Shown here piece after piece: positions 3,914 to 46,929 of a stretch of 64,000 bases of DNA (position 1 is the first letter of the stretch; each line of letters begins with the position of its first letter). The stretch comes from Nitrospirales bacterium (GTDB taxonomy: Bacteria > Nitrospirota > Nitrospiria > Nitrospirales > UBA8639), in NCBI GenBank assembly GCA_021603905.1, contig BQIU01000002.1, positions 1 to 64,000 of the forward strand, in the 5' to 3' direction. The position numbers and the translations under genes were made by a program. The notes under the pieces are model-generated. The model worked only from the letters and a program-made list of their open reading frames with translations. It did not search any database and was not told where the DNA came from.

Positions 3914-3929
3914 TTCAATAGGTGACACA

Positions 3930-4454
3930 ATGAAAAAACTTTTCTTGGTGATGTTTGGAATAAGCCTGTTCATGACATATGGCTGCACGGTCATTGATCA
4001 TTCTCGCGATCCGCTCATCGAGCCGCATGCTTCATGGGCCTTACTGCCGATCGTAAATCATACCGAAACTCCACAAGCCGGTCGCCGCGCTGAGGCGATT
4101 ACCGAAGCTTTGCTCTACAGTCAAGGCATTACCCATTTACTCCGCTATCCGTCGACTCTCCAGGACGAGTCGTTGTTATTGGGTTCGGATCATAAATTGT
4201 ATGACTCGGCATTGAGCTGGGCCAAAGATCAGAAGATCCGCTATGCCATGACGGGGACCGTCGACGAATGGCGCTATAAAGTGGGGATCGACGGGGAGCC
4301 GGCCGTTGGCGTCAGTCTACAGCTTCTCGACCTCAATACGAATCAAGTCGTGTGGACTGCAGTTGGAGGTCAAACTGGCTGGAGCCGCGAAGCGGTGAGC
4401 GCCGTGGCACAAAAGCTGATTAAACGTTTACTTGAGGAAGTGAGGGTCTCCTAA
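3930..4454 (+). CDS. pelC: PelC-like outer-membrane lipoprotein
   Basis: The 174-residue protein begins with a lipoprotein signal peptide. It has Lys-Lys, a hydrophobic stretch, then a Cys at about residue 19 in the context TYGC, a somewhat relaxed lipobox. The length equals PelC of known pel operons (about 172). PelC forms a ring under the PelB barrel and guides the cationic polymer through the outer membrane. The start MKK at 3930 gives a clean signal peptide; an open frame extends further upstream but lies inside pelB. The gene is 16 nt downstream of pelB and its stop directly abuts the pelD start, so translation is probably coupled. Confidence 0.85.
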   Translation: MKKLFLVMFGISLFMTYGCTVIDHSRDPLIEPHASWALLPIVNHTETPQAGRRAEAITEALLYSQGITHLLRYPSTLQDESLLLGSDHKLYDSALSWAKDQKIRYAMTGTVDEWRYKVGIDGEPAVGVSLQLLDLNTNQVVWTAVGGQTGWSREAVSAVAQKLIKRLLEEVRVS

Positions 4455-6789: not shown

Positions 6790-6843
6790 ATTCGTCGAGA
6801 TGGAAGACATCATCATTCACGCATACGAAAAAGGCCTATCGTT

Positions 6844-17842: not shown

Positions 17843-17962
17843 GTATCACCTCCTTGTATGGTGAAACACCGCTCTTCTTGACCAGTAAAAAAGGACTACG
17901 AATCAGAATTGACCACCAAGCTTAACTATCGAGTAGACTACCATTTTGAAGCAATTCACCTG

Positions 17963-17980
17963 AACTCATAAAAACCCTTG
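17963..17980 (-). promoter_or_regulatory. AGGGTT-N6-AGTW box, PRC-barrel gene
   Basis: Reverse-strand CAAGGGTT, six bases, AGTT: an exact match to the shared box. The -10-like TAGTCT lies at 17935-17940 (weak). The target start is about 120 nt downstream at 17842. Confidence 0.7.
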
Positions 17981-21995: not shown

Positions 21996-22192
21996 GCACT
22001 CGAAAAAGTCGTAACTCACAGGAATATACCTCAGGAACCGGAACAGAAGTTGTCGACTTCACATGCGAGTTCATCTTCTCCATAAGACAAGAATGGGCCT
22101 ATGGCGGAGAAATCACCAGAACCACATATCTGACAGATTGATAATATGATGTGTATAACTTACTCCACCCCTTTACATTTTAGTTTAATATA

Positions 22193-22630
22193 TTACATAC
22201 GACTTTGAGAAATACCTTGTAGAACTTCTCCAGTCATTTCTCCATTCATAGGACTGTTCGCGATGTCTCCGAGGGCAATGATGCCGACGACTTCTTTATC
22301 GTCATTCACCACAAGCAGTCTTCTGACTTGTTTATCCTTCATCAGTTGAGACGCCTCATCGAGCTTTTGATGTTCATGGCACAGCATAAAATTCCGTGTC
22401 ATAACATCTTGCACCATGGTGGTGTTGGGGTCACGTCCTTCAGCAACTGATCGTACGGTAATATCTCGATCAGAGATCATTCCCACTAACTCCCGATCGT
22501 TTACAACAGGTAAAATGCCTATGTCACATTGACGCATTTTATCAGCCGCTTCCATAATGCTTTGTTTCGCTTGAACCGTTTCAGTCCCAAATGTCATGAC
22601 ATCTTTCACTGTCAAGGATGCGTTAGCCAT
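22193..22630 (-). CDS. two-CBS-domain protein
   Basis: The 145-residue protein is a CBS pair (about residues 7-65 and 75-135) with typical VVNDRELVGMISDRDITVR and VVNDDKEVVGIIALGDIAN strands. Such stand-alone pairs bind adenine nucleotides or S-adenosylmethionine and regulate partners; the ligand cannot be read here. A strong GGAGGTGAG precedes the ATG. It is divergent from ftsH. A second CBS pair protein lies at 31575. Confidence 0.9.
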   Translation of the reverse strand: MANASLTVKDVMTFGTETVQAKQSIMEAADKMRQCDIGILPVVNDRELVGMISDRDITVRSVAEGRDPNTTMVQDVMTRNFMLCHEHQKLDEASQLMKDKQVRRLLVVNDDKEVVGIIALGDIANSPMNGEMTGEVLQGISQSRM

Positions 22631-22632
22631 AA

Positions 22633-22941
22633 CTCACCTCCATGGTGGAAAGTAGAAGAAATATCACGCATTTCTTAAATTGCATTGTTACTATGTACCG
22701 CGAGGAAGGATAGGGGAACTCTCACTTTCCCTAGTCACACGAATAGACGATTGCAGGACTAGTTAGGCTTTTGGTTCTGCAATAAAACGCTAGAAATAGG
22801 CACGCATACTAGGTGAAATAAAGGAAACCAGGGAAATTCCCAGGTACCGAATGTTAAAAGTCATGATATGTTCCTTCCAATCGTTAGATTAACAACCCCC
22901 TATCCCCTCGCTTCATCTTATCGAGCGAGAGGTGATGATCT
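22633..22941. other. divergent region, CBS gene and ftsH
   Basis: This gene-free stretch contains a variant box reading leftwards (22717-22734). It also has a poorer near-match reading rightwards at 22830-22844 (AGGGAA, six bases, AGG) that could serve ftsH. Confidence 0.4.
22717..22734 (-). promoter_or_regulatory. variant AGGG box (AGGGAA), CBS gene
   Basis: Reverse-strand CTAGGGAA, six bases, AGTT: it differs from the consensus in the two T positions. TACATA at 22692-22697 could be the -10 (35 nt). The CBS start is about 87 nt downstream. Confidence 0.5.
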
Positions 22942-25111: not shown

Positions 25112-26593
25112 TTACTTCATCTCACCGAGTGTGATGGCAATACCTTGTCGATCGAATTCCCGTTTGAGAAGGAGAATAAAAGGAATGGTCAGCAATGTGG
25201 TCACCATGCTGATATACACAAAAATTTGTAGAATAAGGGTTCGTTCATCAGGCACTCCCGCTATATCCAGCCAACTGCCAGAAAAAGATGAGAGCAACCA
25301 AGCCATTGATGGATTGCCAAAAAGCGTATAGAGCCCTGCCCCAATGACTCCTTCGAACATATCCGTGACATTAGCCAACGACATGAGAAAAGCATAACCA
25401 ACACCAGCATACTGAAGTTTCACCGTCTCTCCGGCCAACGTCAGCGGAATGATAAATGCCGGAATAGTGGCAAAGCCAAAGAATGTCTGAAAAAGTAGCC
25501 GAAACCACTCATATCGATTCCATTCGGGTAATGGGTTCAGGTTCTCCGGCCAGGAGTTGAAAACATCGAATGCATTCCACCATGGATGTTGTGGATGTAA
25601 ATAGAGATAAAAGCTCAAGGGGAAAGAAATCACAGCCAGAGTCACGACGGCATAAAGATATTGATCCCATGAAATAGAGTGATATCGGTTCACGACCCAG
25701 CGATACGTGAGGACTGAGAGGAAAAACGTGATTCCTCCAACAGACAGAATGGTTCCAAAAGAAGTGGGACGAAAATGGCGCACGTCAATTAAATAGCTAC
25801 GCTCGATAAAGCCAATCGAGGGACTGAATTTCCAAAAAAACATGAAGAGAACCAGAAACCAAATGACTCGATTGTTTGCGCGAAACTGGGAAAATCGATG
25901 TGGTAACGACTGAAGAAAGAGTCTGATGCGTTGCCATGATGGAACAGATTGGGGAAGCTCAATCTGATGTGGAACAGGAGTTTCTTCGATGTATCGCCAT
26001 CCGACATAGGCCGTGGCCAGAGGTGGAATTCCCGTGAGGAGAAAGACGATCCAGTATTCGAATTTTTCTACTAAAATTTGTTGCTGAACCCATCCCCCAA
26101 GATAAATGGCCGCGGCAGTCGCCAATCCTAATACCGTCCATTGAAAGTTAATGAATGAACCAACCTGATTAAGATGCCGACCACGCTCGACCATGAGCGC
26201 ATCGCATACCACGTCGACAAATGCATAAGTAGTGAATGCAAAATTGAAAACGAATAAATAGAGTAGCGGAATACGAACACCAGCCAGGGAAAGCCCCGCA
26301 CTGAAAGACCAGAATCCCAAGGCCAGGCATGCCATGAGAATATACCAGGATTTGCGTCGGTACCCGTACAGGGGAATCCGATCGGAAATATACCCCCACA
26401 CGGGTTTAATAAGCCATCCAAGACTTCTGAGTGAATTGAATAATTGTCCACCTGTATCACCTAAGGCCAGGACATTTTTAATGAAATACAGAATGGGAAC
26501 TTCCGTAAAATAACTCGTGCCTTGGACAAAATACGGGATACCGATGACCCATTTAAATGGCTTGTGGGTATTTTTCTGAGTCTGGAGAGTCAT
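25112..26593 (-). CDS. MFS transporter, BT1/folate-biopterin-like
   Basis: The 493-residue protein has about 12 transmembrane helices. The N-terminal half has GIPYFVQGTSYFTEVPILYFIKNVL, then KPVWGYISDRIPLYGYRRKSW, which resembles the MFS loop 2-3 motif and the BT1 family (folate/biopterin carriers of protists, plants and cyanobacteria). The substrate is unknown. It lies alone, convergent with ftsH. No good box lies upstream. Confidence 0.8.
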   Translation of the reverse strand: MTLQTQKNTHKPFKWVIGIPYFVQGTSYFTEVPILYFIKNVLALGDTGGQLFNSLRSLGWLIKPVWGYISDRIPLYGYRRKSWYILMACLALGFWSFSAGLSLAGVRIPLLYLFVFNFAFTTYAFVDVVCDALMVERGRHLNQVGSFINFQWTVLGLATAAAIYLGGWVQQQILVEKFEYWIVFLLTGIPPLATAYVGWRYIEETPVPHQIELPQSVPSWQRIRLFLQSLPHRFSQFRANNRVIWFLVLFMFFWKFSPSIGFIERSYLIDVRHFRPTSFGTILSVGGITFFLSVLTYRWVVNRYHSISWDQYLYAVVTLAVISFPLSFYLYLHPQHPWWNAFDVFNSWPENLNPLPEWNRYEWFRLLFQTFFGFATIPAFIIPLTLAGETVKLQYAGVGYAFLMSLANVTDMFEGVIGAGLYTLFGNPSMAWLLSSFSGSWLDIAGVPDERTLILQIFVYISMVTTLLTIPFILLLKREFDRQGIAITLGEMK

Positions 26594-26676
26594 GAAACGT
26601 TCACGATGCCTGCTGTGAGTTGTACAGAGGTGAGTGATATTGGTTTCTTGAAAACAAGGTGTTCAATCAACCATAC

Positions 26677-26832
26677 TCAATTTTTCGACTCTCTCCCCAC
26701 GATCAGAAGCCTATACTCCTGAGTGCGATTCCATGAGCTGGTTTTCCGTGCCACTCGTGCATGGCTCTCCTCCCCCTCATCGAGCCAAGCCATAAGCCGT
26801 CTCGTGATCTGTCCGCATACCTGATTATCCAT
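26677..26832 (-). CDS. 51-residue hypothetical protein
   Basis: The start is set at the ATG 26830-26832 because GGAGGGGGTACTTC precedes it; the longer frame upstream has no such signal. The peptide (MDNQVCGQITRRLMAWLDEGEE and on) is polar and basic at the C-terminus, with no transmembrane segment. I do not recognise it. Confidence 0.4.
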   Translation of the reverse strand: MDNQVCGQITRRLMAWLDEGEESHARVARKTSSWNRTQEYRLLIVGRESKN

Positions 26833-26903
26833 GAAGTACCCCCTCCATGTGAAACATGTCGTTCCTATACTACGAGGATGAGGAGAACTGAACAATAGCA
26901 CCA

Positions 26904-26921
26904 CCAGGGTTATTGGTAGTA
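26904..26921 (+). promoter_or_regulatory. AGGGTT-N6-AGTW box, six-BON gene
   Basis: CCAGGGTT, six bases, AGTA: an exact match. The -10-like TACAAA at 26943-26948 lies exactly 37 nt after the first A. The start at 27097 is about 176 nt downstream. Confidence 0.75.
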
Positions 26922-27096
26922 CGAAAGTGGGAAAAAAGTTGATACAAAAGTTTAGAGCAAGAACGACAAAGTATCCCGAAAAAATGAACAGGAGGGCAAT
27001 CGTACATCATCCCACAATTTAGAATTTCGAATCATAGCTAATGAATGGGAGTGGTGGTTTTAATACAGATCATGAGAGGTTCAAAGAGGGAAGACA

Positions 27097-28569
27097 ATGC
27101 TACAGCCGTCGAACATTAATTCATATATTCTAAAAATTGTGCTCATTGGGTTTATCTCCATAGCGCTCATTCCGAATCTGAGCAGAGCTGAATCCGACTC
27201 CCTGAATATCACCGACAAGGACATCACCGTAGCCATAGAAAGCCGTTTTATTATTGAAGAAAACGTCCCAGCTAATTTCATCAATGTCACGACAGAGAAT
27301 GGCATTGTGACCCTTTCCGGAAACGTTGACAATTTACTCGCCAAGGACCGAGCAGAAAAAATTGTTGAAAGTGTGCGTGGAGTACGAGCCATGATCGATC
27401 TGATTGCGGTGGAACCACTCATCCAACCCGAAGATGAAATCATCAAGAAGAACGTCAACACGGCATTGACCGATGATCCGGCTGCAGACTCCTATGAACT
27501 CACCATTCAGGTGGACGATGGCACGGTGACTCTTCGTGGGATGGTGGAAAGCTGGCAAGAAAAACAATTAAGTGAAACGGTGACCAAATCGGTCAAGGGG
27601 GTAAAGAACATTCGAAATGAGATCACGGTCAATCCTGTCACGATTCGGTCAGATTCGGAAATCGAAGCCGAAATCATTCGTCGGCTTCAATCCGATGTCT
27701 GGGTCCACGAAGGGCTCATTGGTATCATCGTTGAGAAAAACCAAGTCACCTTAACAGGGTCTGTCGGTAGCCTCGCAGAAAAATATCGGGCCTTTACAGA
27801 TGCGTGGGTCAATGGTGTCACTTCCGTGAATGTAGAACAACTCGAGGTGGAATGGTGGGCACGTGACCGAATGCTGCAAAATCCAAAAGAACGGGTTTCA
27901 TCCAACACTCAAAAAGAAGAAGCTATACGTCATGCGTTTTCCTATAGTCCTCGACTTCATCATGTCAACATCTCGATTCAAGTCAAGCAGGGCACAGCGA
28001 TCTTGACAGGCATTGTGAATAATGTCGCCGCCAGACATGCGGCGGAAGAGGCAGCCAGGCAGACCGTCGGGATTTGGCGTGTGCGTAATTTGATAAAAGT
28101 CCGATCAACTGATCCAGCAAATGACGAAGCGTTGGAACGTCGAGTTCAGAAGGCGTTCAATCAACATCCTATGATTGACCGCTATGACCTGATCGTGATG
28201 GCACGAAATGGAACGATTTCCATCGAAGGGTATCTACAGTCTCCGACAGAAATCTTAGAAGCGGTTCGCACCGCAGCAACAGTGAAGGGTGTCACCAAAG
28301 TTTTAAATTATCTCGAGATTAAATCCTCTTCAATGCAGAAAAGTGATGAAGAAATTTGGGAAGATATCAGACGATCGATATGGTGGGATCCTCGTCTTTA
28401 TGATCAGGATATCACTATTGTCGTCGACGATGGGGTGATCACTCTCACAGGTAAAGTCCCGTCCATCCTCGAATGGCGACGCGCCACGAAGATTGCGAAA
28501 GAAGCCGGCGCGGAACGTATACGAAATCGTTTGAAAGTCATAGACGGACCGGATTTTCTGACGAGCTAA
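27097..28569 (+). CDS. exported protein with six BON domains (paralogue 1)
   Basis: The 490-residue protein has a signal peptide (about residues 1-30) and six consecutive BON domains, beginning near residues 38, 112, 186, 265, 340 and 418. Each shows D-x-x-I, a helical stretch, then (V)-x-V-x-x-G-x-V-T-L-x-G-x-V, and a second helix ending in VxGVxxVxNxIxV. BON domains bind phospholipids or glycans and occur in OsmY and related envelope proteins. OsmY has two, so six is unusual. The downstream gene at 28762 is a full-length paralogue. Confidence 0.9.
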   Translation: MLQPSNINSYILKIVLIGFISIALIPNLSRAESDSLNITDKDITVAIESRFIIEENVPANFINVTTENGIVTLSGNVDNLLAKDRAEKIVESVRGVRAMIDLIAVEPLIQPEDEIIKKNVNTALTDDPAADSYELTIQVDDGTVTLRGMVESWQEKQLSETVTKSVKGVKNIRNEITVNPVTIRSDSEIEAEIIRRLQSDVWVHEGLIGIIVEKNQVTLTGSVGSLAEKYRAFTDAWVNGVTSVNVEQLEVEWWARDRMLQNPKERVSSNTQKEEAIRHAFSYSPRLHHVNISIQVKQGTAILTGIVNNVAARHAAEEAARQTVGIWRVRNLIKVRSTDPANDEALERRVQKAFNQHPMIDRYDLIVMARNGTISIEGYLQSPTEILEAVRTAATVKGVTKVLNYLEIKSSSMQKSDEEIWEDIRRSIWWDPRLYDQDITIVVDDGVITLTGKVPSILEWRRATKIAKEAGAERIRNRLKVIDGPDFLTS

Positions 28570-28761
28570 CAACTTCCAATGACTCACTTGGAGTGGAGGC
28601 AAGATGCCTCCCTTCGGCGTCAGTCGTAGTCTTGTCGTTCATCATTCTGAGAAGGGGTGTTCTGTATGGCATGTCGTACTAAAACCGTTTTAACCGTATC
28701 AGCAAGACCCAACAACCAGGAATACAACTCCTGTGATCTTTGAAAAGCTTAAGAACACCAG

Positions 28762-30258
28762 ATGCACACAATCTCACATAACATGATGCGAAGGTGGTTA
28801 ACATGGAGTCTTACATTGACGTTAGGCTTCTTTTCACTGCAGGTTGCTCATTCTGAAAATGAACAACTGGCCATGACAACCGATGCGAATATCGGCTTGG
28901 CGATTGAATACCGATTAGCGCAAGACCATCGAGTACAAGAAAATCTTATCGAAGTAGTGGTCGAACGGGGGATCGTGACATTCACGGGCAGGGTCGACAA
29001 TCTACTTTCCAAAGAACGGGCATCAGCCCTTGCTGAAACCATCAAGGGTGTCCGCAGCGTTATCAATCGCATCATTGTCGCCCCTTCTACCCAATTGGAT
29101 GATGAAAACATTCAACATCACGTACAGTCAGCCTTGCTGGAAAATCCGGCAACAGAACTGTACGAGATTGATGTCACAGTGCAAGACGGAAGTGTCCACT
29201 TACAAGGCACGGTTCAATCATGGCAAGAAAAGCAGTTAGCGCTTCAAGTAGCCAAAGGAGTCAACGGGATAAAAACACTCACACACGATATTATGATCAA
29301 AACGATAGATGACCGTTCCGATCATGCGATAAGAGAGGAAATCATCCAACGGTTGACGTATGATGTGTGGGTCAACCCCGAATCATTAGACGTCGTGGTC
29401 CAAGATGGAACGGTGTCATTATCCGGAACCGTAAACAGCTTGGATCAGAAGTCCCGCGCAATCCACCTGTCTTGGGTCCATGGCATTACCGCCGTTCACG
29501 GCGATCAACTGAACGTGGAATGGTCACCGTCTCAACGTCTACGTCGTACTGGTCTCGTCACACCTTCCGATGAAACGATACAGCAGGCCATCAAGGACGC
29601 ACTCTCCTATGATCCGCGAGTCGTAAAATCCGATATCACCATTGAGGTGAACGAAGGATTGGTGATCCTCACGGGAACCGTGGACACTCTCTATGCCAAG
29701 CAAGCCATTGAAGAGGATGCTCAAAACACTGTCGGGATCTATCGTGTTGTGAATCATGTAAAAGTCCAATCGCAGACCACCATACCTGATGAAGAAATTG
29801 CCAGTCGGATGCAAGCCTCAATTTCTCGAGATCCGTTTCTCGACCAAGAAAACATTGACGTTACGGTTCATCATGGGACAGTGTTCCTTCAGGGTCATGT
29901 CACATCTCGATATCAACAAGCCCGAGCCACGACGCTTGCCTGGGGCGTTAAAGGGGTCGTCAATGTCAGCAACACCCTCCAACATCCTGTTAAATGGACG
30001 TGGGAATCGGATATTGAACTCCGTCAGAACATCAAAGAACAATTTTGGTGGAGTCCTTTCCTGTCAGTCGAATCTATCACCGTTCAAGTCGAAGATGGTG
30101 TGGCAACATTAGATGGAACCGTTGATTCTTGGCAACAACGACACATTGCCAAGGATAACGCCTTGGCGGCAGGAGCCAAATCAGTCCATAACCGAATACA
30201 GATTCAATCACTTGATGGCTCGTCATTCGTTCCGACACCTGAAAAACTCTATAGATAA
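28762..30258 (+). CDS. exported protein with six BON domains (paralogue 2)
   Basis: The 498-residue protein has a signal peptide (about residues 1-30) and six BON domains in the same arrangement as its upstream neighbour. They align over their whole length, for example in the second domain's GTVQSWQEKQL versus GMVESWQEKQL. The two arose by tandem duplication followed by clear divergence. No AGGGTT box was found in the 192-bp gap, so it may be read from the upstream promoter or from its own different one. A periplasmic chaperone or envelope-protective role is inferred from OsmY. Confidence 0.88.
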   Translation: MHTISHNMMRRWLTWSLTLTLGFFSLQVAHSENEQLAMTTDANIGLAIEYRLAQDHRVQENLIEVVVERGIVTFTGRVDNLLSKERASALAETIKGVRSVINRIIVAPSTQLDDENIQHHVQSALLENPATELYEIDVTVQDGSVHLQGTVQSWQEKQLALQVAKGVNGIKTLTHDIMIKTIDDRSDHAIREEIIQRLTYDVWVNPESLDVVVQDGTVSLSGTVNSLDQKSRAIHLSWVHGITAVHGDQLNVEWSPSQRLRRTGLVTPSDETIQQAIKDALSYDPRVVKSDITIEVNEGLVILTGTVDTLYAKQAIEEDAQNTVGIYRVVNHVKVQSQTTIPDEEIASRMQASISRDPFLDQENIDVTVHHGTVFLQGHVTSRYQQARATTLAWGVKGVVNVSNTLQHPVKWTWESDIELRQNIKEQFWWSPFLSVESITVQVEDGVATLDGTVDSWQQRHIAKDNALAAGAKSVHNRIQIQSLDGSSFVPTPEKLYR

Positions 30259-30424
30259 AACCGAGATAAAAAAGACCCCTCTCATGAACACGGGTACACA
30301 ACATTGACACACGGCTTGTTCAGATCTCCCAACCGACCGTCTCAATCGTTCTCTTCGAAAAGCGAACAGACTTGACCTTCGAGCAGGGAGAGAAAGTCAT
30401 TCTCCAATCCAATATGAGTTAGCC

Positions 30425-31243
30425 ATGCCTCAAAATCTCTTTAACGGACTTCTTGCGGGTCAGAAAGCGTTGGTGACGGGTGCCAACAGCGGCATTGGGA
30501 CAGCGATAGCCAAGTCATTAGCGAAGGCTGGAGCCTCCGTCGTCGTCAACTTCGTAACCGAGGAAGACAAGGCTGAGGAAGTCGTCAATGCAATTAACAC
30601 CAATGGCGGAGAGGCCATAGCCCTATATGCGGATGTAAGCAATGAAGAGCAGGTGCACATCATGTTTCGAAAAATGTTCGAGACGTACGGCACAATCGAT
30701 ATTCTCATCAATAATGCCGGCATCCAACAAGACGCTCCATTTCAGGACATGACGTTGGCGCAATGGAACCGTGTATTGTCCGTCAATCTTACTGGTCAGT
30801 TTCTGTGTGCCAGGGAAGCCGTGCGAGAGTTTCTTCGGCGTGGACAGAACACGCAAACCTCTTCTGCTCTAGGCAAAATCATTTGTATTTCATCAGTTCA
30901 CGACACAATTCCCTGGGCTGGCCACGTCAACTATGCCGTGTCCAAGGCAGGAATAAGCATGTTAATCAAGACGATGGCACAGGAACTCGGCCCACAGCAT
31001 ATACGGGTAAACAGTATTTCCCCCGGTGCGATTAAGACACCCATTAATACAGCAGCCTGGAATACTCCAGAGACGGAAGACGCATTGTTACAATTAATCC
31101 CATATGGACGCATTGGCCATGCCGAGGAAATCGGCAAGATGGCAGTGTGGCTGGCCTCCGATGAATCCGATTATGTGACAGGCGCCACGTTCTATGTGGA
31201 TGGAGGCATGATGCTGTATCCAGGATTCCGCACTGGGGGATAA
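30425..31243 (+). CDS. short-chain dehydrogenase, glucose 1-dehydrogenase-like
   Basis: The 272-residue Rossmann-fold SDR has the cofactor motif TGANSGIGTAIA near the N-terminus, NNAGIQ, catalytic Tyr170 and Lys174 in NYAVSKAG, and the C-terminal PGAIKTPIN segment. Overall it resembles bacterial glucose 1-dehydrogenases (NAD(P)-dependent oxidation of glucose to gluconolactone). SDR substrate specificity is hard to read from sequence. Within an island of sugar enzymes the assignment is plausible. Confidence 0.85.
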   Translation: MPQNLFNGLLAGQKALVTGANSGIGTAIAKSLAKAGASVVVNFVTEEDKAEEVVNAINTNGGEAIALYADVSNEEQVHIMFRKMFETYGTIDILINNAGIQQDAPFQDMTLAQWNRVLSVNLTGQFLCAREAVREFLRRGQNTQTSSALGKIICISSVHDTIPWAGHVNYAVSKAGISMLIKTMAQELGPQHIRVNSISPGAIKTPINTAAWNTPETEDALLQLIPYGRIGHAEEIGKMAVWLASDESDYVTGATFYVDGGMMLYPGFRTGG

Positions 31244-31574
31244 AAGATGATGTGCAGAGGATCTATAAGTGATACGCGAGCAACAGAAAAGCGTGCGTGC
31301 TGATGATGAAGCAGGCAAACACATTCTGATTACATCGAACACTTCGAATCCAGGGATTTTGCTAGTAGCACCGAATGATCTTTGTTGTTAGAAGGAAATG
31401 GCTCTCACTTTTTCAATTCTCATAACATCGGTAACGTATCAGAGCACAAGAGTAATCACAGAAAAAGCTTTTGTTGTGAAACGGTCGTTGCCGCACCGAC
31501 TTGGTCATCAGGAGGAGAGGAAAGAAACCACAACATAATGTTTTATATTTACTCAAAAAAGAAAGGATAGACTC
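31244..31574. other. intergenic region before CBS gene
   Basis: Its 331 bp hold one variant box (31350-31367) and no visible coding frame. Confidence 0.4.
31350..31367 (+). promoter_or_regulatory. variant AGGG box (AGGGAT), second CBS gene
   Basis: CCAGGGAT, six bases, AGTA: one change from the consensus. TTAGAA at 31388-31393 lies 36 nt after the first A. The gene start is about 208 nt downstream. Confidence 0.55.
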
Positions 31575-32048
31575 ATGAAAGTACGAGAACTTATGACAAA
31601 AAGTGTAAGCACATGTGAACCCAATACCAATCTTGCCGCAGCAGCGATCATGATGTTGGATAGTGATTGCGGCATACTTCCAGTCGTAGGCTCTGAAAAT
31701 AAGTTGCTGGGAGTGTTAACCGATCGAGATATTACCATCGCTCTCGCAACGAAAGGAAAAATGGCATCGGAAGTTTTTGTGCATGAAGTCGTACAAGATC
31801 ACACTGATTCATGTGCACAAGAAGATGACATGAAAAGAGCATTAGAAATTATGGCCGATGGGAAAGTACGACGATTGCCGGTGGTGAATGAGGAAGGGGT
31901 ACTTCAAGGAATCATCTCAATTAATGATGCAATTGGACATGTGCAACCAGGAACGAAGAAAGGACTTTCTGAAACTGATGTGCTGATGGCACTGAAGAGC
32001 ATTTGTGGGTATCAATCGACAATTCCAGATCAAACAATGGTTCATTAA
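31575..32048 (+). CDS. two-CBS-domain protein
   Basis: The 157-residue CBS pair (about residues 1-60 and 70-130) has LMTKSVSTCEPNTNL, GCGILPVVGSENKLLGVLTDRDI and RRLPVVNEEGVLQGIISINDAI. It is a paralogue of the protein at 22193. Probably a cytosolic nucleotide-sensing regulator; the partner is unknown. Both CBS genes have variant rather than exact boxes upstream. Confidence 0.9.
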   Translation: MKVRELMTKSVSTCEPNTNLAAAAIMMLDSDCGILPVVGSENKLLGVLTDRDITIALATKGKMASEVFVHEVVQDHTDSCAQEDDMKRALEIMADGKVRRLPVVNEEGVLQGIISINDAIGHVQPGTKKGLSETDVLMALKSICGYQSTIPDQTMVH

Positions 32049-32062
32049 TAAAGAGTTTATCT

Positions 32063-32080
32063 CAAGGGTTTTGAGGAGTT
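32063..32080 (+). promoter_or_regulatory. AGGGTT-N6-AGTW box, two-BON gene
   Basis: CAAGGGTT, six bases, AGTT: an exact match, 15 nt after the CBS stop. The -10-like TACCAT at 32102-32107 lies exactly 37 nt after the first A. The start at 32157 is about 77 nt downstream. Confidence 0.75.
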
Positions 32081-32156
32081 GTTCAACAAGTCATTGAACA
32101 TTACCATTTAAGAAATATCCTCTTTATCAATCTTTAGCCTAGAAAGGACCACAATC

Positions 32157-32840
32157 ATGAAGTTGTTACCTGTATTCACCTCAACAGTTGCTGCTCTGAC
32201 TCTATCGATTGGGTTAACAGGTCTTCCTGGAGTTGCTCATAGTCAAGTGGGTTACGCTGACTATGATTATGCGCCCTACTACAATCCATACAATGACCCC
32301 TTTTACAATCCCCCAGGTCCGTATTACGACTCGCACTACTATCCCCGCTATGGGACGTACTATAACCCCTGCTATGACGATATTGGCCAATTAACCGATA
32401 CCAAACTTCGTTATTGTATCAAGCGAGACCTTATGGCGAGTCCGTTTGTTGATAGAGAAGATATCCACGTAAGAGTCGATAACGGCACAGCCACCCTTTC
32501 GGGTAGTGTCGAAGATCGGAGTGCCATGATCGACGCCGTCGAAATTGCGTATGACGCTGGCGCCTCAAAGGTTCGTAATAAATTACGTCCACGTGCCAGA
32601 GAGAGTCGACCATGGGCCGACATGCGAGATTCAGAACTGAAGGCAGAGATTGAAGATGAATTGGATTTCAGTCCATTTGTCAATGCCGATCAAATTCGCG
32701 TGAAGGTGCGAGATGGCGTCGCGACGTTGTACGGAGGAGTTGAGAATGAAGGGGAGATTGCGGATGCTGTCGAAAATGCATACGAAGCCGGAGCAAAACG
32801 TGTCAGAAGCAAATTGTGGGTCGACCATGAACTTTCATAG
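32157..32840 (+). CDS. exported two-BON-domain protein (paralogue A)
   Basis: The 227-residue protein has a signal peptide (about residues 1-30, ending AHSQ). A Tyr/Pro/Asn-rich low-complexity stretch (about 32-78) is followed by two BON domains (about 80-145 and 155-225) joined by a short basic linker. The BON cores read VDNGTATLSGSVEDRSAMIDAVEIAYDAGA and VRDGVATLYGGVENEGEIADAVENAYEAGA. OsmY-like envelope stress function is inferred. It has a close paralogue 0.8 kb downstream. The Tyr-rich segment is unusual for the family. Confidence 0.87.
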   Translation: MKLLPVFTSTVAALTLSIGLTGLPGVAHSQVGYADYDYAPYYNPYNDPFYNPPGPYYDSHYYPRYGTYYNPCYDDIGQLTDTKLRYCIKRDLMASPFVDREDIHVRVDNGTATLSGSVEDRSAMIDAVEIAYDAGASKVRNKLRPRARESRPWADMRDSELKAEIEDELDFSPFVNADQIRVKVRDGVATLYGGVENEGEIADAVENAYEAGAKRVRSKLWVDHELS

Positions 32841-32882
32841 ATCCTAAGGTCATCTTGATTTCGCTGTCACGAAGTCAAGGTC

Positions 32883-32958
32883 ATCACGGAAGGAAACCTC
32901 ATCACCATGATGAATGAAATTGTGCGGAGATCAAGGTGAGAGGTTTCCATTCCGTGAT
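32883..32958. repeat. 18-bp stem with one bulge, long hairpin
   Basis: ATCACGGAAGGAAACCTC (32883-32900) pairs fully with 32940-32958 except for one bulged A at 32949. Five further pairs (TCACC 32902-32906 with GGTGA 32935-32939) extend the stem inwards, leaving a 28-nt loop. The hairpin begins 42 nt after the BON stop codon. There is no T-run. It could be a structured RNA or a miniature inverted-repeat element. Confidence 0.65.
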
Positions 32959-33135
32959 CCCTTTAAGTTCCAAAGACCAGTGAAGTCTATGCACAACATC
33001 TTATGAAGGCGTCAAGGTGTGGGAAGATATGGCTGTCGGCAAACAAGGAACAATTCAAGACTCCGAAACCTTCGAATGTGTGAAAAACTGTCAACTCGCA
33101 AATCCGTGTCCGAGATAATACTGATGCAAAATACA

Positions 33136-33181
33136 TGTAAAAATGCATTGATACGTGGAGATGCCTAGGTGCATTTCTACA
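33136..33181. repeat. second inverted repeat, 12 bp with one mismatch
   Basis: TGTAAAAATGCA (33136-33147) and TGCATTTCTACA (33170-33181) are reverse complements at 11 of 12 positions, with a 22-nt loop. One more A-T pair flanks the stem. Confidence 0.5.
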
Positions 33182-33420
33182 TTCGTCATTTGGTCGACAG
33201 AGTGTTGCCCGTTGACTCTTGAGAAATTGTAACCTGGTATCTGGTCTTATCCTTCCATTCCACGCCACCTCAGATTAATCCATTGATTTCGTTTCAGATG
33301 ATCCATATTTGGCGACGCTGAATCATCAGAATCGGATACACACGTTTATCAGCTCTGCTTCGTCCAACCTTCCGGACATAAAGCGAAATCCACACACCGC
33401 CAAAACGATGACTGAAGCTT

Positions 33421-33438
33421 CAAGGGTTTTAGAGGGTT
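33421..33438 (+). promoter_or_regulatory. near-match AGGG box (GGTT half), BON paralogue B
   Basis: CAAGGGTT, six bases, GGTT: one change from the consensus. The -10 at the expected place is poor (TTAGCG near 33459), with TAATTA slightly further at 33465-33470. The start at 33612 is about 174 nt downstream. Confidence 0.55.
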
Positions 33439-33611
33439 GTGGCAGCGGGAATCTCACGTTAGCGTAATTATCATATGTATACGTTCTGAGAATTACCATG
33501 ATTCATAAGAAGTTATCGAAAGGTACCTCTAACAACCATGACAGTGGATTCACGGCGATGAATCAGTCGTCTTAACTTTTATCACCCTCTCGCAATGAAA
33601 GGCACGCAACC

Positions 33612-34232
33612 ATGAAGTCGCTTCAAACCTGTCTATCCACAATTAGCGTAACCACCCTGGCCATCTGTCTCTTTGGATTACCGGGACTGGCACACAGCCA
33701 AGTAGGGTACTTCGAATATGAATCCAATCCGTATTACGGCTCTTATTACGATCCTTATGATCCCTATTATTTTGACGATAATATCCTCACCGATCGGGAG
33801 ATTCGCAGACGCACAATGCGAATACTATCGATAAGTCCATTTGTCGATGAAGAACATATACGCGTCGAGGTTGATAAAGGTATTACAACCCTTTCCGGAA
33901 CGGTGGAAGATCGAAGTGCGATGCTCGACGCCGTGGAAATTGCCTATGATTCAGGAGCATGGAAAGTTCGCAATAAACTGCGCAAACGTGATTGGAACAA
34001 TCAGCCGTGGGCCGAGATGCGAGACTCGGAACTGAAAGAAGAGATTGAAGACGAGCTGGCCATGAGTCCGTTTGTGAACGCCGATCAAATCGCCGTGGGA
34101 GTTCGAAGTGGTGTCGCGACGCTCTATGGCGGAGTCGAAAACAAAGGTGAAATTGCAGATGCCGTCGAAAATGCCTATGAAGCGGGAGCCAAGCGAGTCA
34201 AAAGCAATTTATGGATTGATCCTGGACTCTAA
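33612..34232 (+). CDS. exported two-BON-domain protein (paralogue B)
   Basis: The 206-residue protein has a signal peptide ending AHSQ, a Tyr/Asp/Pro-rich stretch (about residues 32-57) and two BON domains. It is nearly parallel to the protein at 32157, including the shared VGY after the signal peptide and shared GTVEDRSAMLDAVEIAYDSGA and LYGGVEN segments. The Tyr-rich region is shorter. Tandem duplication is evident, and the duplicated genes kept similar boxes but not the same spacer. Confidence 0.87.
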   Translation: MKSLQTCLSTISVTTLAICLFGLPGLAHSQVGYFEYESNPYYGSYYDPYDPYYFDDNILTDREIRRRTMRILSISPFVDEEHIRVEVDKGITTLSGTVEDRSAMLDAVEIAYDSGAWKVRNKLRKRDWNNQPWAEMRDSELKEEIEDELAMSPFVNADQIAVGVRSGVATLYGGVENKGEIADAVENAYEAGAKRVKSNLWIDPGL

Positions 34233-34414
34233 TCATTTCTTATATGTTGCTTAACATGGTTGCTTCATCAAATGACGCGAGAACGTGGAGGGATAAGTCT
34301 CGTTTATCATTGTTCAGGAATACTGAAGGAAGTAAGATGCGAGGCCTCCATATGATGAACACCCATCAACCCTGCGAAGGAGCCATTTCATAAGACGGAG
34401 TTTGTGACCATCAG

Positions 34415-35080
34415 ATGGTAAAATTTGCTCCCTCTATTTTAGCAGCGAACTTCCTGTACCTGGGCGCACAACTCAAGGAATTGGAAGCGGCAGGTGCAAA
34501 CCGAATTCACATTGATGTCATGGATGGGCATTTCGTTCCAAATCTGAGTCTCGGGATACCAATCGTGGAAGCTGTCCGGCAGGGAACCACGCTTCCAGTG
34601 GAAGTCCATCTGATGATTGAGCATCCTGAGCGGTATCTCGAAGACTTCACTCGTGCGGGCTCGGATCAGATCATCGTTCATCAAGAAGTTTCACCACATT
34701 TGCATCGAACGATCCAACGGGTCAAAGATCTGGGTAAAAAAATCAGCGTCGCGCTCAACCCTGCGACGCCTGTACTCGTACTAGATGATATTTTCACTGA
34801 ATTGGATACAGTCCTCATCATGACGGTTAATCCAGGATTTGGAGGCCAGCGATTTATCGAGAGCACGCTCTCTAAAATCCGTCATGTTCGTCAACTATTC
34901 AGAAATCGGCATCTGGAAGGCGAGGTCGAGGTGGATGGAGGGGTCGACCTTCACACCGCCCCACGAGCGATTGAAGCCGGAGCCGACGTCCTTGTGGCCG
35001 GCTCGTCAATTTTCAACGATCCACAAGGTCCTGGCTCTGGCTTGCGACAGCTCCAAGGATGCTGCGGACAGATCATGTGA
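34415..35080 (+). CDS. rpe: ribulose-phosphate 3-epimerase
   Basis: The 221-residue TIM-barrel enzyme interconverts ribulose 5-phosphate and xylulose 5-phosphate. Family motifs are PSILAANF, the metal and catalytic segment HIDVMDGHFVPN, PVEVHLMIEHP, the MTVNPGFGGQRFI loop, and the second catalytic Asp in EVEVDGGV, followed by GADVLVAGSSIF. Length and order are complete. It is likely a second or accessory copy, given its place among stress genes; it feeds the pentose-phosphate pathway with transaldolase at 40312. Confidence 0.95.
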   Translation: MVKFAPSILAANFLYLGAQLKELEAAGANRIHIDVMDGHFVPNLSLGIPIVEAVRQGTTLPVEVHLMIEHPERYLEDFTRAGSDQIIVHQEVSPHLHRTIQRVKDLGKKISVALNPATPVLVLDDIFTELDTVLIMTVNPGFGGQRFIESTLSKIRHVRQLFRNRHLEGEVEVDGGVDLHTAPRAIEAGADVLVAGSSIFNDPQGPGSGLRQLQGCCGQIM

Positions 35081-35186
35081 GATTGTGAATGCATCTCATA
35101 TCAGAAAACGACGTCATAGCTTCTCCAGATAGGTCTTTCTTTTGAATGTCGTCCGAACCCCCTCACAATAAAATGGAGAATATCCC

Positions 35187-36200
35187 ATGGCAACCATGAA
35201 AGCCGTTCAACTAACTCGTGCGAAAGGTCAATTCGAATTGATCGAGCGTCCAATTCCTGAACCAAAAGCGGGCGAGGTCCGAATTAAAGTCGAAGCCTGT
35301 GGAATTTGTCACAGCGATGTCTTTGTCAAGGATGGACTGTGGCCCGGCATCACCTACCCTCGAATTCCCGGCCATGAAGTCTCCGGTCATATCGATACCG
35401 TGGGAGAACAGGTGACGCAATGGAAGAATGGAGACCGGGTAGGTGTGGGATGGCATGGAGGACATTGTTTTCAATGTACCTGCTGCCGTATCGGAGATTT
35501 TATCAACTGCGAACAAGCCAAAATCGCAGGAATCAGTTATGACGGAGGTTATGCCGAATATATGGTCGCTCCGCAGGAGGCTGTTGCCCATATGCCTGAG
35601 GGTCTCGATTTGGTGATGAGTGCTCCATTGATGTGCGCCGGGATCACCACGTTTAATGCTCTACGAAATAGTGGAGCACGAGGAGGAGATCTGGTCGCGA
35701 TACAAGGGGTGGGCGGCCTCGGCCATCTCGCCGTTCAATATGCACACACCATGGGTTTTCAAACTGTAGCGATTTCAGGAGGCAATGATAAAGAACAACT
35801 TGCAAAAGAATTGGGAGCCCATCATTTCATTAATTATCATGATGGCTCTCCGGCTGAAGAATTACAGAAACTTGGTGGAGCCGAGGTCATTCTTGCAACG
35901 GCTCCCAGTAGCAAAGCGATTGCGTCTTTAGTTGACGGGCTCACACCTCGAGGGAAGTTAGTGATTGTGGCTGCAGCCTCAGATCCGCTAGAAGTGATCC
36001 CGATTGCCATGATCAGTGGTCGCATGATTGCCGGATGGCCGAGTGGTCATGCCAAAGATTCCGAAGATGCACTGAATTTCAGTGCTCTCGCGAATATTCG
36101 CCCGATGGTTGAAACCTATCCACTCGACCAGGTCTCAGATGCGTACACACAGATGATTACGAATAAGGCACGGTTTAGAGTCGTCTTACAGATTGACTAA
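35187..36200 (+). CDS. zinc-dependent alcohol dehydrogenase (AdhP-like)
   Basis: The 337-residue medium-chain dehydrogenase carries the catalytic-zinc ligands in CGICHSD and GHEVSGH. The structural-zinc Cys quartet (CxxCxxCx7C) lies in HCFQCTCCRIGDFINCE, and the NAD-binding GVGGLGHLAVQYA lies near residue 175. Such enzymes oxidise primary alcohols or reduce aldehydes, and the close match to AdhA/AdhP-type suggests short-chain alcohols or aldehydes. The gene directly follows rpe on the same strand, and a formaldehyde dehydrogenase-like gene faces it. Confidence 0.9.
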   Translation: MATMKAVQLTRAKGQFELIERPIPEPKAGEVRIKVEACGICHSDVFVKDGLWPGITYPRIPGHEVSGHIDTVGEQVTQWKNGDRVGVGWHGGHCFQCTCCRIGDFINCEQAKIAGISYDGGYAEYMVAPQEAVAHMPEGLDLVMSAPLMCAGITTFNALRNSGARGGDLVAIQGVGGLGHLAVQYAHTMGFQTVAISGGNDKEQLAKELGAHHFINYHDGSPAEELQKLGGAEVILATAPSSKAIASLVDGLTPRGKLVIVAAASDPLEVIPIAMISGRMIAGWPSGHAKDSEDALNFSALANIRPMVETYPLDQVSDAYTQMITNKARFRVVLQID

Positions 36201-36501
36201 GCGTCGCGATATTCTTGACGCGCACATGCGAAGACAGGGTCTCCCACATAACGAAAAGGGCAGGCATAAATACTGGAAAGAAAGGTTTGAACTTTAGAGA
36301 ACATCACTGATTTTCCGTTAACAAGCATGGAAAAAAATCTTGTGGCTCGACATGTTTTTTATGGCGATTGCATACCAACAGATTCCTTGCAGAAAAGAAC
36401 GTTTTTCGTCGATATAAAAACGAGGGCTTTAATAAAAACAGGTTTGCGTGTGACGCTACGCTTAACTTTTCTTCACTGTTTAATTTCAACACATTCAATT
36501 C
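36201..36501. other. gap between convergent dehydrogenase genes
   Basis: About 300 bp of AT-rich DNA. A short GCGTC/GACGC inverted repeat lies right after the alcohol dehydrogenase stop. No clear gene or box was found. Confidence 0.35.
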
Positions 36502-37641
36502 TTATCCCGCAGGCTTCAGAAGAACCTTGACCCAGCCATTCTCACGCGCATCGAAATGTCGATACGCCTCTGGGGCATCTTTCAATGACAATTGGTGAGA
36601 CACAAGAAATGATGGGTTTGCTTTGCCAGAAGCAATAAGCTTGCTTAACCGGCGATTATAGGCTTTCACATTGGCTTGACCAGTCCCAACATGTTGCCCC
36701 TTTGTCCAAAAGAGGCCCCAATCAAATGCCAGCTTTCCCTGCTGTGCTAACGTATCAGATGATTTCGGATCTTCCGGCAAGAACACGCCGACAGCACCAA
36801 TGCCCCCAGTAGGGCGAACCGACTGAACTAAATTATTCATCGTCATGTTGGCCTGTTCCTGCCCCTGGGGAGTATGGGCATGGTAGCCCACACATTCGCA
36901 TCCTGTATCTGCTCCTTCTCCCTTGGTTAATTCCATGATCTGCTCAACCGGTGAAATTTTCGAGTCATCAATGGGGATGGCACCAATTTTCTTCGCCAGT
37001 TGAAGACGGTCAGGATGACGGTCAACGATCATGACCAGACTGGCACTCTTGAGTATAGCCGAGTACGCTGCCATCAGACCGACCGGGCCCGCACCATACA
37101 CCACGACAGAATCACCTGGTTGCACACCTGCTAGCTCAGTCGCATGGTACCCGGTTGGAAAGATATCGGAGAGCATGACGTAGTCGTTTTCCTTTTCCAC
37201 TGCATCTTCCGGCAAACGCAGGCAGTTAAAATCACCATAGGGCACACGGAGATATTCGGCTTGTCCACCACGATACGGCCCCATGCCGGCATACCCGTAA
37301 GCACCTCCAGCCATTCCAGGATTGACGGTTAAGCAGAAAGCCGTCAATCCTCTTTCGCAATTTTTACAAAACCCACAACTAATATTGAATGGGAGGCAGA
37401 CATGATCGCCAACTTGCACTTGGGAGACAGCATCACCAACTTCAATCACCTCTCCAAGGTTTTCATGTCCGAACACCGTACCGGGTTCGACATTCGTTCG
37501 TCCTTCATACATATGTAGATCCGAACCACAGATGTTGGTGGTTGTCACTTTGACAAGCACATCTGTTGCGCGTTCGATTGTAGCATCAGGAACCTCAGCA
37601 ATGCTGACGTCCCGAGATCCATTATACACAAGTGCTTTCAT
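36502..37641 (-). CDS. fdhA: glutathione-independent formaldehyde dehydrogenase-like enzyme
   Basis: The 379-residue zinc medium-chain dehydrogenase resembles Pseudomonas putida FdhA, which oxidises formaldehyde to formate without glutathione. Catalytic-zinc ligands are in CGSDLHMYEGR and GHENLGEV, structural Cys residues are in CGFCKNCERGLTAFC, and the NAD site is GAGPVGLMAAYSA. The family-specific long insert with MAGGAYGYAGMGPYRGGQAEYLRVPYGDFN is present. The ATG at 37639-37641 is used because GGAGG lies 9 nt upstream; ten further upstream codons are open but lack this signal. Confidence 0.9.
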   Translation of the reverse strand: MKALVYNGSRDVSIAEVPDATIERATDVLVKVTTTNICGSDLHMYEGRTNVEPGTVFGHENLGEVIEVGDAVSQVQVGDHVCLPFNISCGFCKNCERGLTAFCLTVNPGMAGGAYGYAGMGPYRGGQAEYLRVPYGDFNCLRLPEDAVEKENDYVMLSDIFPTGYHATELAGVQPGDSVVVYGAGPVGLMAAYSAILKSASLVMIVDRHPDRLQLAKKIGAIPIDDSKISPVEQIMELTKGEGADTGCECVGYHAHTPQGQEQANMTMNNLVQSVRPTGGIGAVGVFLPEDPKSSDTLAQQGKLAFDWGLFWTKGQHVGTGQANVKAYNRRLSKLIASGKANPSFLVSHQLSLKDAPEAYRHFDARENGWVKVLLKPAG

Positions 37642-38015
37642 CTTGGAATTCCTCCGTCTGTTAGGGAGCAAACGTCACTTCATGATGAAGAAAAATGTAG
37701 ACAGATTAGACACGAAGAAGCTCTCGCCAGGAACTGGTGAAAACCCTGGACCGAAAAGTCTATCGACGAGGATTGATCCGAGTGGATCCAAATCTACATG
37801 AATGGTTGAATGCCTAGATACATTGTTTTAATCTTAGGAATTAGACACAATGATAAATCATACACATGGTCATTGCTAAAATGAATTGAAAACATCTGTT
37901 GAGCAGTGCCATGATGAACTCATGTGAAGACACGTTTGAGAGTCGGTATAGTCAATCAAGTATTTTTTGATTGATGGAATCCCCCCTCACTCTTCCAAAA
38001 TAAAGAAACAGAACA
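37642..38015. other. divergent region, fdhA and GH15 gene
   Basis: Its 374 bp contain one exact box facing fdhA (37732-37749). No box faces the GH15 gene, and no small gene was recognised. Confidence 0.4.
37732..37749 (-). promoter_or_regulatory. AGGGTT-N6-AGTW box, fdhA
   Basis: Reverse-strand CCAGGGTT, six bases, AGTT: an exact match. The -10-like TCTAAT at 37705-37710 lies exactly 37 nt after the first A. The fdhA start is about 90 nt downstream. Confidence 0.75.
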
Positions 38016-39812
38016 ATGTCGTATCAAGCCATCGAAGATTACAGCATCATTGGGGATTTACATACCGTCGCTTTGGTTGGCATGAACGGATCTATTGATT
38101 TCATGTGCTTTCCACGCTTTGATTCCCCAACAATATTTGCGGCACTACTTGATGATGAAAAGGGCGGGTATTTTCGCATTGATCCTCAATTAGAACATGG
38201 CCAGCCCAAACAATTATATCTGACCGACACCAATATCCTGTTGACCCGCAAGTATTCCAAGCATGGCGTCTCGGAAATTTTAGATTTCATGACCATTGAA
38301 CACGAGGAAAAAGTTCATGATCTCATCCGTCGGGTGAAAACAGTACGCGGCCAGGTTGATTATCGAATGGTGTGTGCGCCGAGATTTGACTATGCTCGCG
38401 TCCGTCATCGAATCGAACGCGTCCATGATCGGGAGGTCCTCATTACATCCGAAGGTCCTGATAGCTTACGGCTGCGACTCCATGCCACGGTCCCACTCCA
38501 GGTGCAAGACCATGATATCGTGGCTGAATTTACATTATCCGCAGATGAATATGCAGCCTTTGTCATGGAAGCCGTGCATGATGAGCATGAACCAGCCCCA
38601 CTGAATGACGAATTTCTCTCTTCTGCCTTGAATGAAACGATGAATTATTGGAGAGAGTGGATGTCGATTTCTCAATATCAAGGACGTTGGCGCGAAACCG
38701 TCCACCGGTCGGCACTCACCTTAAAGCTCCTGACATTTGAGCCGACTGGAGCAATCATTGCGGCACCCACGTTCGGGTTACCTGAAGAAATTGGGGGCTC
38801 ACGAAATTGGGATTATCGGTATACCTGGATCCGAGATGCCGCGTTTACCATCTATGCGTTTATTCGGCTGGGGTATACCAAAGAAGCCCAAGCTTTTATG
38901 AAGTGGATTGAAGCACGATGCGATGATTTGAACCCTGATGGATCATTGCAAGTCATGTATGGACTTGATGGACGAAAAGACCTCACGGAAAGCCAGTTGT
39001 CGCATTTTGAAGGCTATCAACACTCCTCACCAGTCAGAATTGGGAATGGAGCATTTAACCAGATTCAACTCGATATCTACGGAGCGCTCTTAGATTCGGT
39101 CTATCTTTACAATAAATATGCCGAACCCATTTCCATTGATCTGTGGCATAATCTTGAGCGGCTCATCAATTGGGTCTGTGCGAATTGGCAGTCTCCCGAC
39201 CATGGCATCTGGGAGTTCCGAGGTCAAACACACCAGTTTTTGTTTTCTCGACTCATGTGTTGGGTTGCCGTTGATCGAGGAATCCGTCTGGCCCAGAAAC
39301 GCTCGTTTCCTGCCCCTCTTGATCGTTGGCTCGCAACACGGAATGACATATTCAATGAAATCATTTCAGAGTTTTGGGATGATTCGCGACAGACGTTTGT
39401 ACAATACAAAGGCAGTCACACATTGGATGCCTCAATTTTGCTGATGCCGCTTGTGAAATTTGTCGGGCCTACCGACCCACGTTGGCTCTCAACCCTTCGA
39501 GCGTTAGAAAAGGATTTAGTAGAAGATTCGTTGGTGTATCGGTACAAAGAACAAGAAGAAATCGATGGGATTGCAGGGAGTGAGGGCAGTTTTTCCATGT
39601 GCTCATTTTGGTACGTTGAATGTTTATCCAGATCCGGAGATCTCGAAAAAGCCCAGTTTTTCTTTGAGAAAATTATCAGTTACAGCAATCATACTGGGTT
39701 GTATGCGGAAGAACTTGGGCCAAGCACAGCACATCTTGGAAATTTCCCACAAGCCCTTACTCATCTTGCATTGATTAGTGCGGCATACGATTTAGATCGA
39801 CGGTTAGGGTAA
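38016..39812 (+). CDS. glycoside hydrolase family 15 protein (glucoamylase/trehalase-like)
   Basis: The 598-residue cytosolic protein has an N-terminal beta-sandwich (about 1-220) and an (alpha/alpha)6 barrel. Markers include YSIIGDLHTVALVGMNGSIDFMCFPRFDSPTIF at the start, GGSRNWDYRYTWIRDAAF with substrate-binding Trp/Arg/Asp, and IRIGNGAFNQ-like RIGNGAFNQIQLD. The C-terminal EEIDGIAGSEGSF segment carries Glu residues as in family catalytic sites. Members hydrolyse alpha-linked glucose, and many bacterial ones act on trehalose. The specific substrate is not readable. Confidence 0.92.
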   Translation: MSYQAIEDYSIIGDLHTVALVGMNGSIDFMCFPRFDSPTIFAALLDDEKGGYFRIDPQLEHGQPKQLYLTDTNILLTRKYSKHGVSEILDFMTIEHEEKVHDLIRRVKTVRGQVDYRMVCAPRFDYARVRHRIERVHDREVLITSEGPDSLRLRLHATVPLQVQDHDIVAEFTLSADEYAAFVMEAVHDEHEPAPLNDEFLSSALNETMNYWREWMSISQYQGRWRETVHRSALTLKLLTFEPTGAIIAAPTFGLPEEIGGSRNWDYRYTWIRDAAFTIYAFIRLGYTKEAQAFMKWIEARCDDLNPDGSLQVMYGLDGRKDLTESQLSHFEGYQHSSPVRIGNGAFNQIQLDIYGALLDSVYLYNKYAEPISIDLWHNLERLINWVCANWQSPDHGIWEFRGQTHQFLFSRLMCWVAVDRGIRLAQKRSFPAPLDRWLATRNDIFNEIISEFWDDSRQTFVQYKGSHTLDASILLMPLVKFVGPTDPRWLSTLRALEKDLVEDSLVYRYKEQEEIDGIAGSEGSFSMCSFWYVECLSRSGDLEKAQFFFEKIISYSNHTGLYAEELGPSTAHLGNFPQALTHLALISAAYDLDRRLG

Positions 39813-40311
39813 CCTCTCCTCAGTCAGTCAGATTCATGATCGCGCCTCCGATTGAAAAGAGAATCTTTCCCTTGCGCAAAGCATTCTAAAACAAGAATTC
39901 TGTCAAAAGACTTATGACACAACATCATGGTTCCCGCGCTGTGTATTCAGCCACAAATCGCGAGCCTGAAAAGCCAAGTCTTGTCTTGGAATGTACAAAG
40001 TCTTGCGTTGCGACCTGTCTGTGGCCCCAACAGACACACATCATACGAGGTTCATAGACAAAAATCGGTGAACTAGGGTTTCGAGGAGTACACCATCAAA
40101 TTGATTTAGCGTACAAATAAACCAATACGAGACATATCGTAGAAGAGTGTAAGCTCCTGGTCGCAAGAGATTTTGCTGAGAAGGGTTCTGAGACTGATGG
40201 CCATGCCCTCGCAGATTCAACTGGTTGAGAGAAAATACAATTCATCCTTGATTCACTCGCTCTGTAACGATCTACACATACACATCGGATATATTTTAAA
40301 GGAGAGTCATC
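39813..40311. other. 499-bp gap before transaldolase gene
   Basis: It holds an exact box at 40073-40090 and a perfect 7-bp stem at 40016-40036 (TGTCTGT and ACAGACA, 7-nt loop) 37 bp before it. No gene is seen. The ribosome binding site AAAGGAG lies just before 40312. Confidence 0.45.
40073..40090 (+). promoter_or_regulatory. AGGGTT-N6-AGTW box, transaldolase gene
   Basis: CTAGGGTT, six bases, AGTA: an exact match. The -10-like TACAAA at 40112-40117 lies exactly 37 nt after the first A. The start at 40312 is about 222 nt downstream, implying a long leader. Confidence 0.78.
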
Positions 40312-46704: not shown

Positions 46705-46929
46705 GCGTATCCTGAGCCTCTCCCCGCCCTGGTTGGAACGTATTTGGATTCACGATCGTCTCATTAAATCATCTGAACATTTTTTTCATGCTAGGGTTTT
46801 ATTCAGTTGTTGAATAGGTTATTTGGTTGATAATGTACAAAAACGCTGGTGTAAAAAACACGAGTATTTCAGTCGAAGATTGAGTAGTAACCTAAACTTG
46901 GCGAATATCACTGAACAAAGAAAATATTT
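46705..46929. other. gap after kinase gene
   Basis: Its 225 bp include the exact box at 46791-46808. No gene is seen. Confidence 0.4.
46791..46808 (+). promoter_or_regulatory. AGGGTT-N6-AGTW box, small membrane protein
   Basis: CTAGGGTT, six bases, AGTT: an exact match. The -10-like TAATGT at 46831-46836 lies 38 nt after the first A. The next start is the small membrane-protein frame at 46930 (122 nt); the Spy-like gene at 47271 is 463 nt away. Confidence 0.72.

Follow-up and report, generated by a model that had tools for sequence, protein, structure and literature searches.

A strong stem behind BON1 and a candidate promoter before BON2 at the junction of two tandem BON genes in a Nitrospirales bacterium

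The 771-bp gap between two tandem BON genes is best read as the junction of two separately transcribed genes, where a stem in the 3' untranslated region (UTR) of the upstream gene, BON1, is followed by a promoter belonging to the downstream gene, BON2. A probability of roughly 0.6 is assigned to this reading. Stems of this sort in 3' UTRs, to which the stem, termed hairpin 1, is assigned, are already known in principle. The initial annotation, for which nothing known explained the gap, is not upheld on that point. Most likely, the remainder of the gap beyond hairpin 1 consists of spacer and the BON2 promoter, and nothing in it points to an RNA gene of its own.

The gap and its flanking genes

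The window analysed is a stretch of 64 kb that forms part of contig C2 of a metagenome-assembled genome (G000; 4.7 Mb in 203 contigs, 91% complete, 7.5% estimated contamination). The gap itself spans positions 32841-33611 (Table 1). Each of the flanking genes encodes a secreted protein with two BON domains, and the BON1 product exhibits a signal peptide-like start and a linker rich in Y, D and P. The two genes are paralogues, with 69% identity where they match best, and the BON2 orthologue in the congener G004 is 85% identical.

The region had been annotated as gene-free. This was borne out, as both neighbours match PF04972 and coding evidence is absent from the gap. A six-frame Pfam search of the gap gave no match above the cut-off, and the sole open reading frame (ORF) longer than 90 amino acids (32987-33268, minus strand, 93 amino acids) has no relative in the 48 other family genomes; a hidden or decayed gene was rejected on these grounds. 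A known RNA family was likewise rejected, since the Rfam 15 search of the gap returned nothing over the gathering score (best 19.3 bits versus 60). Elsewhere in the window, a Pel-type exopolysaccharide cluster (80-9725) encodes a PelB barrel, a PelD GGDEF protein, a DUF3492 glycosyltransferase and PelG, and a Mutator-family transposase gene (PF00872; 13580-14899, minus strand) contains a stable stem at 14781-14880.

Table 1 Features of the gap, its surroundings and contig C2. Positions are those of the window unless a contig is named.
Feature	Position	Strand	Remarks
BON1 promoter composite (candidate)	32065-32107	+	Box AGGGTTTTGAGGAGTT 32065-32080, 21 nt, TACCAT 32102-32107
BON1	32157-32840	+	PF04972, E 4.3e-20, two stretches
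Hairpin 1, putative BON1 3' UTR	32883-32958	+	-40.6 kcal/mol, z -7.8
Hairpin 2	33136-33181		Weak, unsupported as a feature
C>G stretch, candidate Rho-loading region for BON1 transcript	33200-33420	+	Skew about -0.1 to -0.33
BON2 promoter composite (candidate)	33423-33465	+	Box AGGGTTTTAGAGGGTT 33423-33438, 21 nt, TAGCGT 33460-33465
BON2	33612-34232	+	PF04972, E 8.3e-18
Stretch missing in congener G004:C77	22735-33421		blastn of window
Further composite	17935-17978	-	Exact pattern match
Further composite	46793-46836	+	Exact pattern match
Further composite	G000:C2:91737	+	Exact pattern match
Further composite	G000:C2:92929	-	Exact pattern match
NarL-type regulator pair, first gene	G000:C2:108165-108812	+	Receiver + LuxR/GerE domain
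NarL-type regulator pair, second gene	G000:C2:108916-109551	-	Receiver + LuxR/GerE domain

A candidate promoter for BON2

Comparison of the regions upstream of BON genes yielded a conserved element, AGGGTTTTnnRGRGTT, which also precedes the genome's third BON gene (C77) and the BON2 orthologue of G004, the latter at a nearly equal distance from the ATG. With two mismatches at most, the window contains 12 matches to this box against an expectation of 1.5, and none of 100 shuffled sequences reached that number. When 16 sites were aligned, a second block, TAnnnT, emerged 21 nt downstream, although it had not been part of the first search pattern. The composite AGGGTTTTnnnnRGTT-N20-22-TAnnnT was searched in 49 family genomes, with the pattern read backwards as a control. 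It occurs 90 times, as compared with 11 occurrences of the reversed control, and 88 of the 90 fall in 12 genomes. The sites before BON1 and BON2 both match this family-wide pattern exactly. The box of BON1 stands 93 nt before the gene; that of BON2 lies 190 nt before the gene, inside the gap, and the ATG follows 147 nt after the composite.

The box alone, with one mismatch allowed, gave 32 matches in the whole genome versus 35 for the control; it is the composite with its -10 block that separates signal from noise. Seven of these 32 matches lie on contig C2, which makes up 2.8% of the genome (P 2.7e-5), as do six of the ten exact composites in the assembly. The C2 composites form a clustered island of stress type. 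An ORF was found within 400 nt downstream at 33 of the 34 distinct sites examined, but the search was lenient and the figure is thus no proof of association. Genes behind the composites, named from sequence and, within the window, from Pfam, include those for BON, CBS-like, PRC-barrel, SDR, MFS-like and four-helix Cys-rich proteins.

Judging from these patterns, the BON2 promoter most likely occupies the final 190 bp of the gap. Transcription would restart there, at a sigma-70-like TAnnnT block preceded by an activator box that would take the place of a good -35 element. As an alternative to this promoter half only, the box could be a promoter element of an alternative (ECF-like) sigma factor instead of an activator site. 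The two blocks at fixed spacing and the stress-type genes behind the sites favour such a factor; however, the second block is TAnnnT as in sigma-70, at the position expected of a -10 with 17-nt spacing, and the box recurs before a gene coding for a NarL-type regulator. The alternative sigma factor is accordingly rated as credible but rather unlikely.

Hairpin 1 and the end of the BON1 transcript

Hairpin 1 had been annotated as an 18-bp stem with one bulge and five inner pairs. Folding agrees with this description, giving 18 outer pairs with one bulge, five more pairs and, in addition, a short inner stem. The hairpin begins 43 nt past the BON1 stop codon and exceeds in length every other short-range inverted repeat of the window, where its stretch ranks fourth in stability among the plus-strand stretches of 100 nt. 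Folded in a context of 126 nt, it reaches -54.2 kcal/mol (z -7.0, equalled by none of 200 shuffles). Such a GC-rich stem near a gene end is a hallmark of intrinsic terminators, but the sequence that follows is CCCTTTAAG and contains no U-tract, in line with the annotated lack of a T-run behind either hairpin; hairpin 1 was not among the results of the terminator scan. A stable stem is also located past the stop codon of a six-BON gene (27097-28569), at 28581-28680 (z -4.0).

Lacking a U-tract, hairpin 1 probably does not terminate transcription alone. This absence, together with the presence of a Rho gene in the genome (TIGR00767 over the cut-off, 689.6 bits, G000:C25), leads to the preferred reading of hairpin 1 as a protective 3'-UTR stem of the BON1 mRNA rather than an intrinsic terminator. 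Most likely, the polymerase would pass hairpin 1 into the C-rich, G-poor stretch downstream, Rho would free the RNA, and 3'-to-5' exonucleases would shorten it back to hairpin 1, which, left at the end, would protect the message. The stretch as a Rho-loading region is suggestive only, the excess of C over G being modest (15 more C than G in the best 100 nt, at the 97th percentile of the window).

The inferred order of events has a parallel in E. coli. There, as summarised in PMC13289151, GC-rich hairpins that stand at 3' ends and lack a U-tract are interpreted as the outcome of Rho termination and subsequent trimming to a stabilising hairpin; Rho-sensitive transcripts end at such hairpins because exonucleases trim them back. 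BON1 shares with the E. coli ends the GC-rich stem after the stop codon, the missing U-tract and the encoded Rho, and it has, to a modest degree, C-rich, G-poor sequence downstream. It differs in that the E. coli ends are mapped whereas the BON1 end is predicted from sequence, and in that the C>G stretch starts only about 240 nt past the stem.

Alternatively, hairpin 1 could act as a terminator by itself, of a lineage-specific kind that needs no U-tract. It is a very stable single stem in the right place, directly behind a gene, and its surroundings show no enrichment of T-tract terminators (9 found in 26000-40000 versus 12.9 expected). In G021 and G023, strong stems (z -3.2 to -5.0) also stand at the 3' ends of genes that converge (L044:2748-3122 and 3300-3716; L046:12072-12446). 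Against this, canonical intrinsic termination requires a U-tract, and the stem of hairpin 1 is longer than is usual for an intrinsic terminator. In a scan of 81 gene ends, only some 15% had a strong stem, which is therefore not the general terminator of the lineage. With rho also present in the genome, self-sufficient termination is considered improbable.

Equivalent stems behind BON genes in relatives

The DNA 3' of the family's BON genes was compared, ten of these genes being of the window's locus type. Nine of the ten (BON1 of the window, G004, both G035 copies, G029, G023, G021, G033 and G063) carry a strong stem no farther than about 120 nt past the stop codon (z -4.3 to -10.4); hairpin 1 lies within this distance. 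The exception is BON2 of the window (z -0.5), though its G004 orthologue has such a stem. Among BON genes elsewhere, a strong 3' stem was seen in 1 of 14, counting soundly framed genes. A stem behind all BON genes was thus rejected, and the feature is confined to those of the window's locus type, where a T run follows the stem only in G063. The two tandem BON genes of G035 each have their own stem, so that the BON gene and its 3' stem behave as a unit. The BON tree is poorly resolved, and the stem therefore cannot be assigned to one clade.

Eight of the stems align on a common core, GRCRAGGC...GCCTYGYC, with 91.3% of the cells paired and two-sided changes at six of 13 pairs (14 cells). Slid registers of this alignment were only 36-50% paired, the register used having been chosen after a control in which an earlier register was slid gave 91% at +1. 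The covariation score was 0.374 versus 0.186 after shuffling and was reached by none of 500 shuffles, a measure that would come out alike for an RNA stem and for a cruciform or palindrome in DNA. Such covariation among equivalent stems argues that the structure at that place is selected, and that the stem behind the locus-type BON genes of the relatives is maintained by selection. In those genomes it is essentially confined to the BON locus.

Covariation across homologous loci, proposed at the outset as a check, therefore holds for the eight stems of the relatives, with hairpin 1 outside the set. A model of the covarying stem (R1) found no match in the window up to an E value of 1; direct sequence homology was not found, and the conservation of hairpin 1 is thus one of position and strength only. 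A covariation test of hairpin 1 itself would call for a second copy of BON1, and none was found. By position and strength, hairpin 1 would be the equivalent of the relatives' stems.

The initial annotation had also raised a structured regulatory RNA. That proposal stands as regards a real stem whose equivalents covary; it does not as regards the setting, which is read as the BON1 3' UTR and for which Rfam is empty. A regulatory RNA proper, either a small RNA derived from the 3' UTR or a site for an RNA-binding protein, would account for relatives keeping the core while the flanks diverge, which is more than stability alone demands. The core is, however, absent from the stem in the window, the loop is not conserved and Rfam offers no match, and this reading is held to be distinctly improbable.

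Hairpin 2 had been picked from the sequence as matching at 11 of 12 pairs. The pairs are present, but the hairpin is weak and strand-dependent. On the plus strand its 81-nt region has a z of -1.4, with 17 of 200 shuffles equally good, and a competing fold wins; cut out (46 nt), it scores z -2.6 on the plus and z -4.3 on the minus strand. The relatives give no comparative support, and hairpin 2 as a feature is unproven.

Gene content and the origin of the gap

In G004, the sequences corresponding to window 22187-22734 and 33546-35151 (80-93% identical) are about 325 bp apart by blastn, and thus about 10.7 kb were either lost there or gained here. The stretch missing in G004 holds genes for an FtsH-like protein, two six-BON proteins, an SDR and a CBS protein, as well as BON1 and hairpin 1. 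G004 retains BON2, and the box lies within the 325 bp.

The remaining suggestion, that the gap is the relic of a small mobile element (a MITE or REP-like palindrome) brought in by the BON duplication, was rejected as scarcely credible: a long inverted repeat in non-coding DNA, as in REP and MITE palindromes, and its absence from G004 are in its favour, but the gap is single-copy, matching only itself above chance in its own genome and forming no family there, four congeners yield no better-than-chance match, the relatives too have one locus-specific stem per locus, including one behind each gene of the G035 tandem pair, and the six-frame Pfam search of the gap revealed no transposase.

A candidate NarL-type regulator and a wider regulon

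One composite site precedes a gene for a NarL-type response regulator (L128), and this protein was used as a query. Of the 12 genomes rich in the box, 11 have a pair of such regulator genes, which in the window's genome lies on the same contig; none of the 37 other family genomes has it (E 1e-40 and identity class). In eight of the 11 genomes the composite precedes the second regulator gene by 171-317 nt, exactly in seven and with one mismatch in G011; it is not found there in G000, G004 and G015. Response regulators of the NarL kind commonly autoregulate. A box before the regulator gene is therefore a good lead, not a demonstration, and the pair and the box may merely share an island. As in class II sites of NarL/FixJ-type activators, the box abuts the -35 position with the -10 at a fixed distance, and it recurs before a NarL-type regulator gene. 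It differs from these sites in that, to our knowledge, AGGGTTTTnnnnRGTT belongs to no described NarL/FixJ-type member. On balance, the box would be part of a stress-type regulon, with the NarL-type response regulator as its probable driver.

The hairpin by itself is a modest result, namely conserved gene-end stems without U-tracts in Nitrospirales that are missed by terminator predictors. Of greater interest is the wider regulon, which looks undescribed; a limited literature search found no description of a stress regulon in Nitrospirales. A combined picture, held at a little under even odds, is that of an undescribed general-stress regulon with the gap as one of its nodes, in which a NarL-type two-component system would act through box-N21-TAnnnT on BON, CBS, PRC-barrel, SDR and similar genes, and in which the BON mRNAs would be stabilised by a compensatorily maintained 3' stem. 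The main nitrite oxidisers and the complete ammonia oxidisers belong to Nitrospirales. For this group, the question of the regulon becomes testable through a searchable box, the target genes listed and a candidate regulator.
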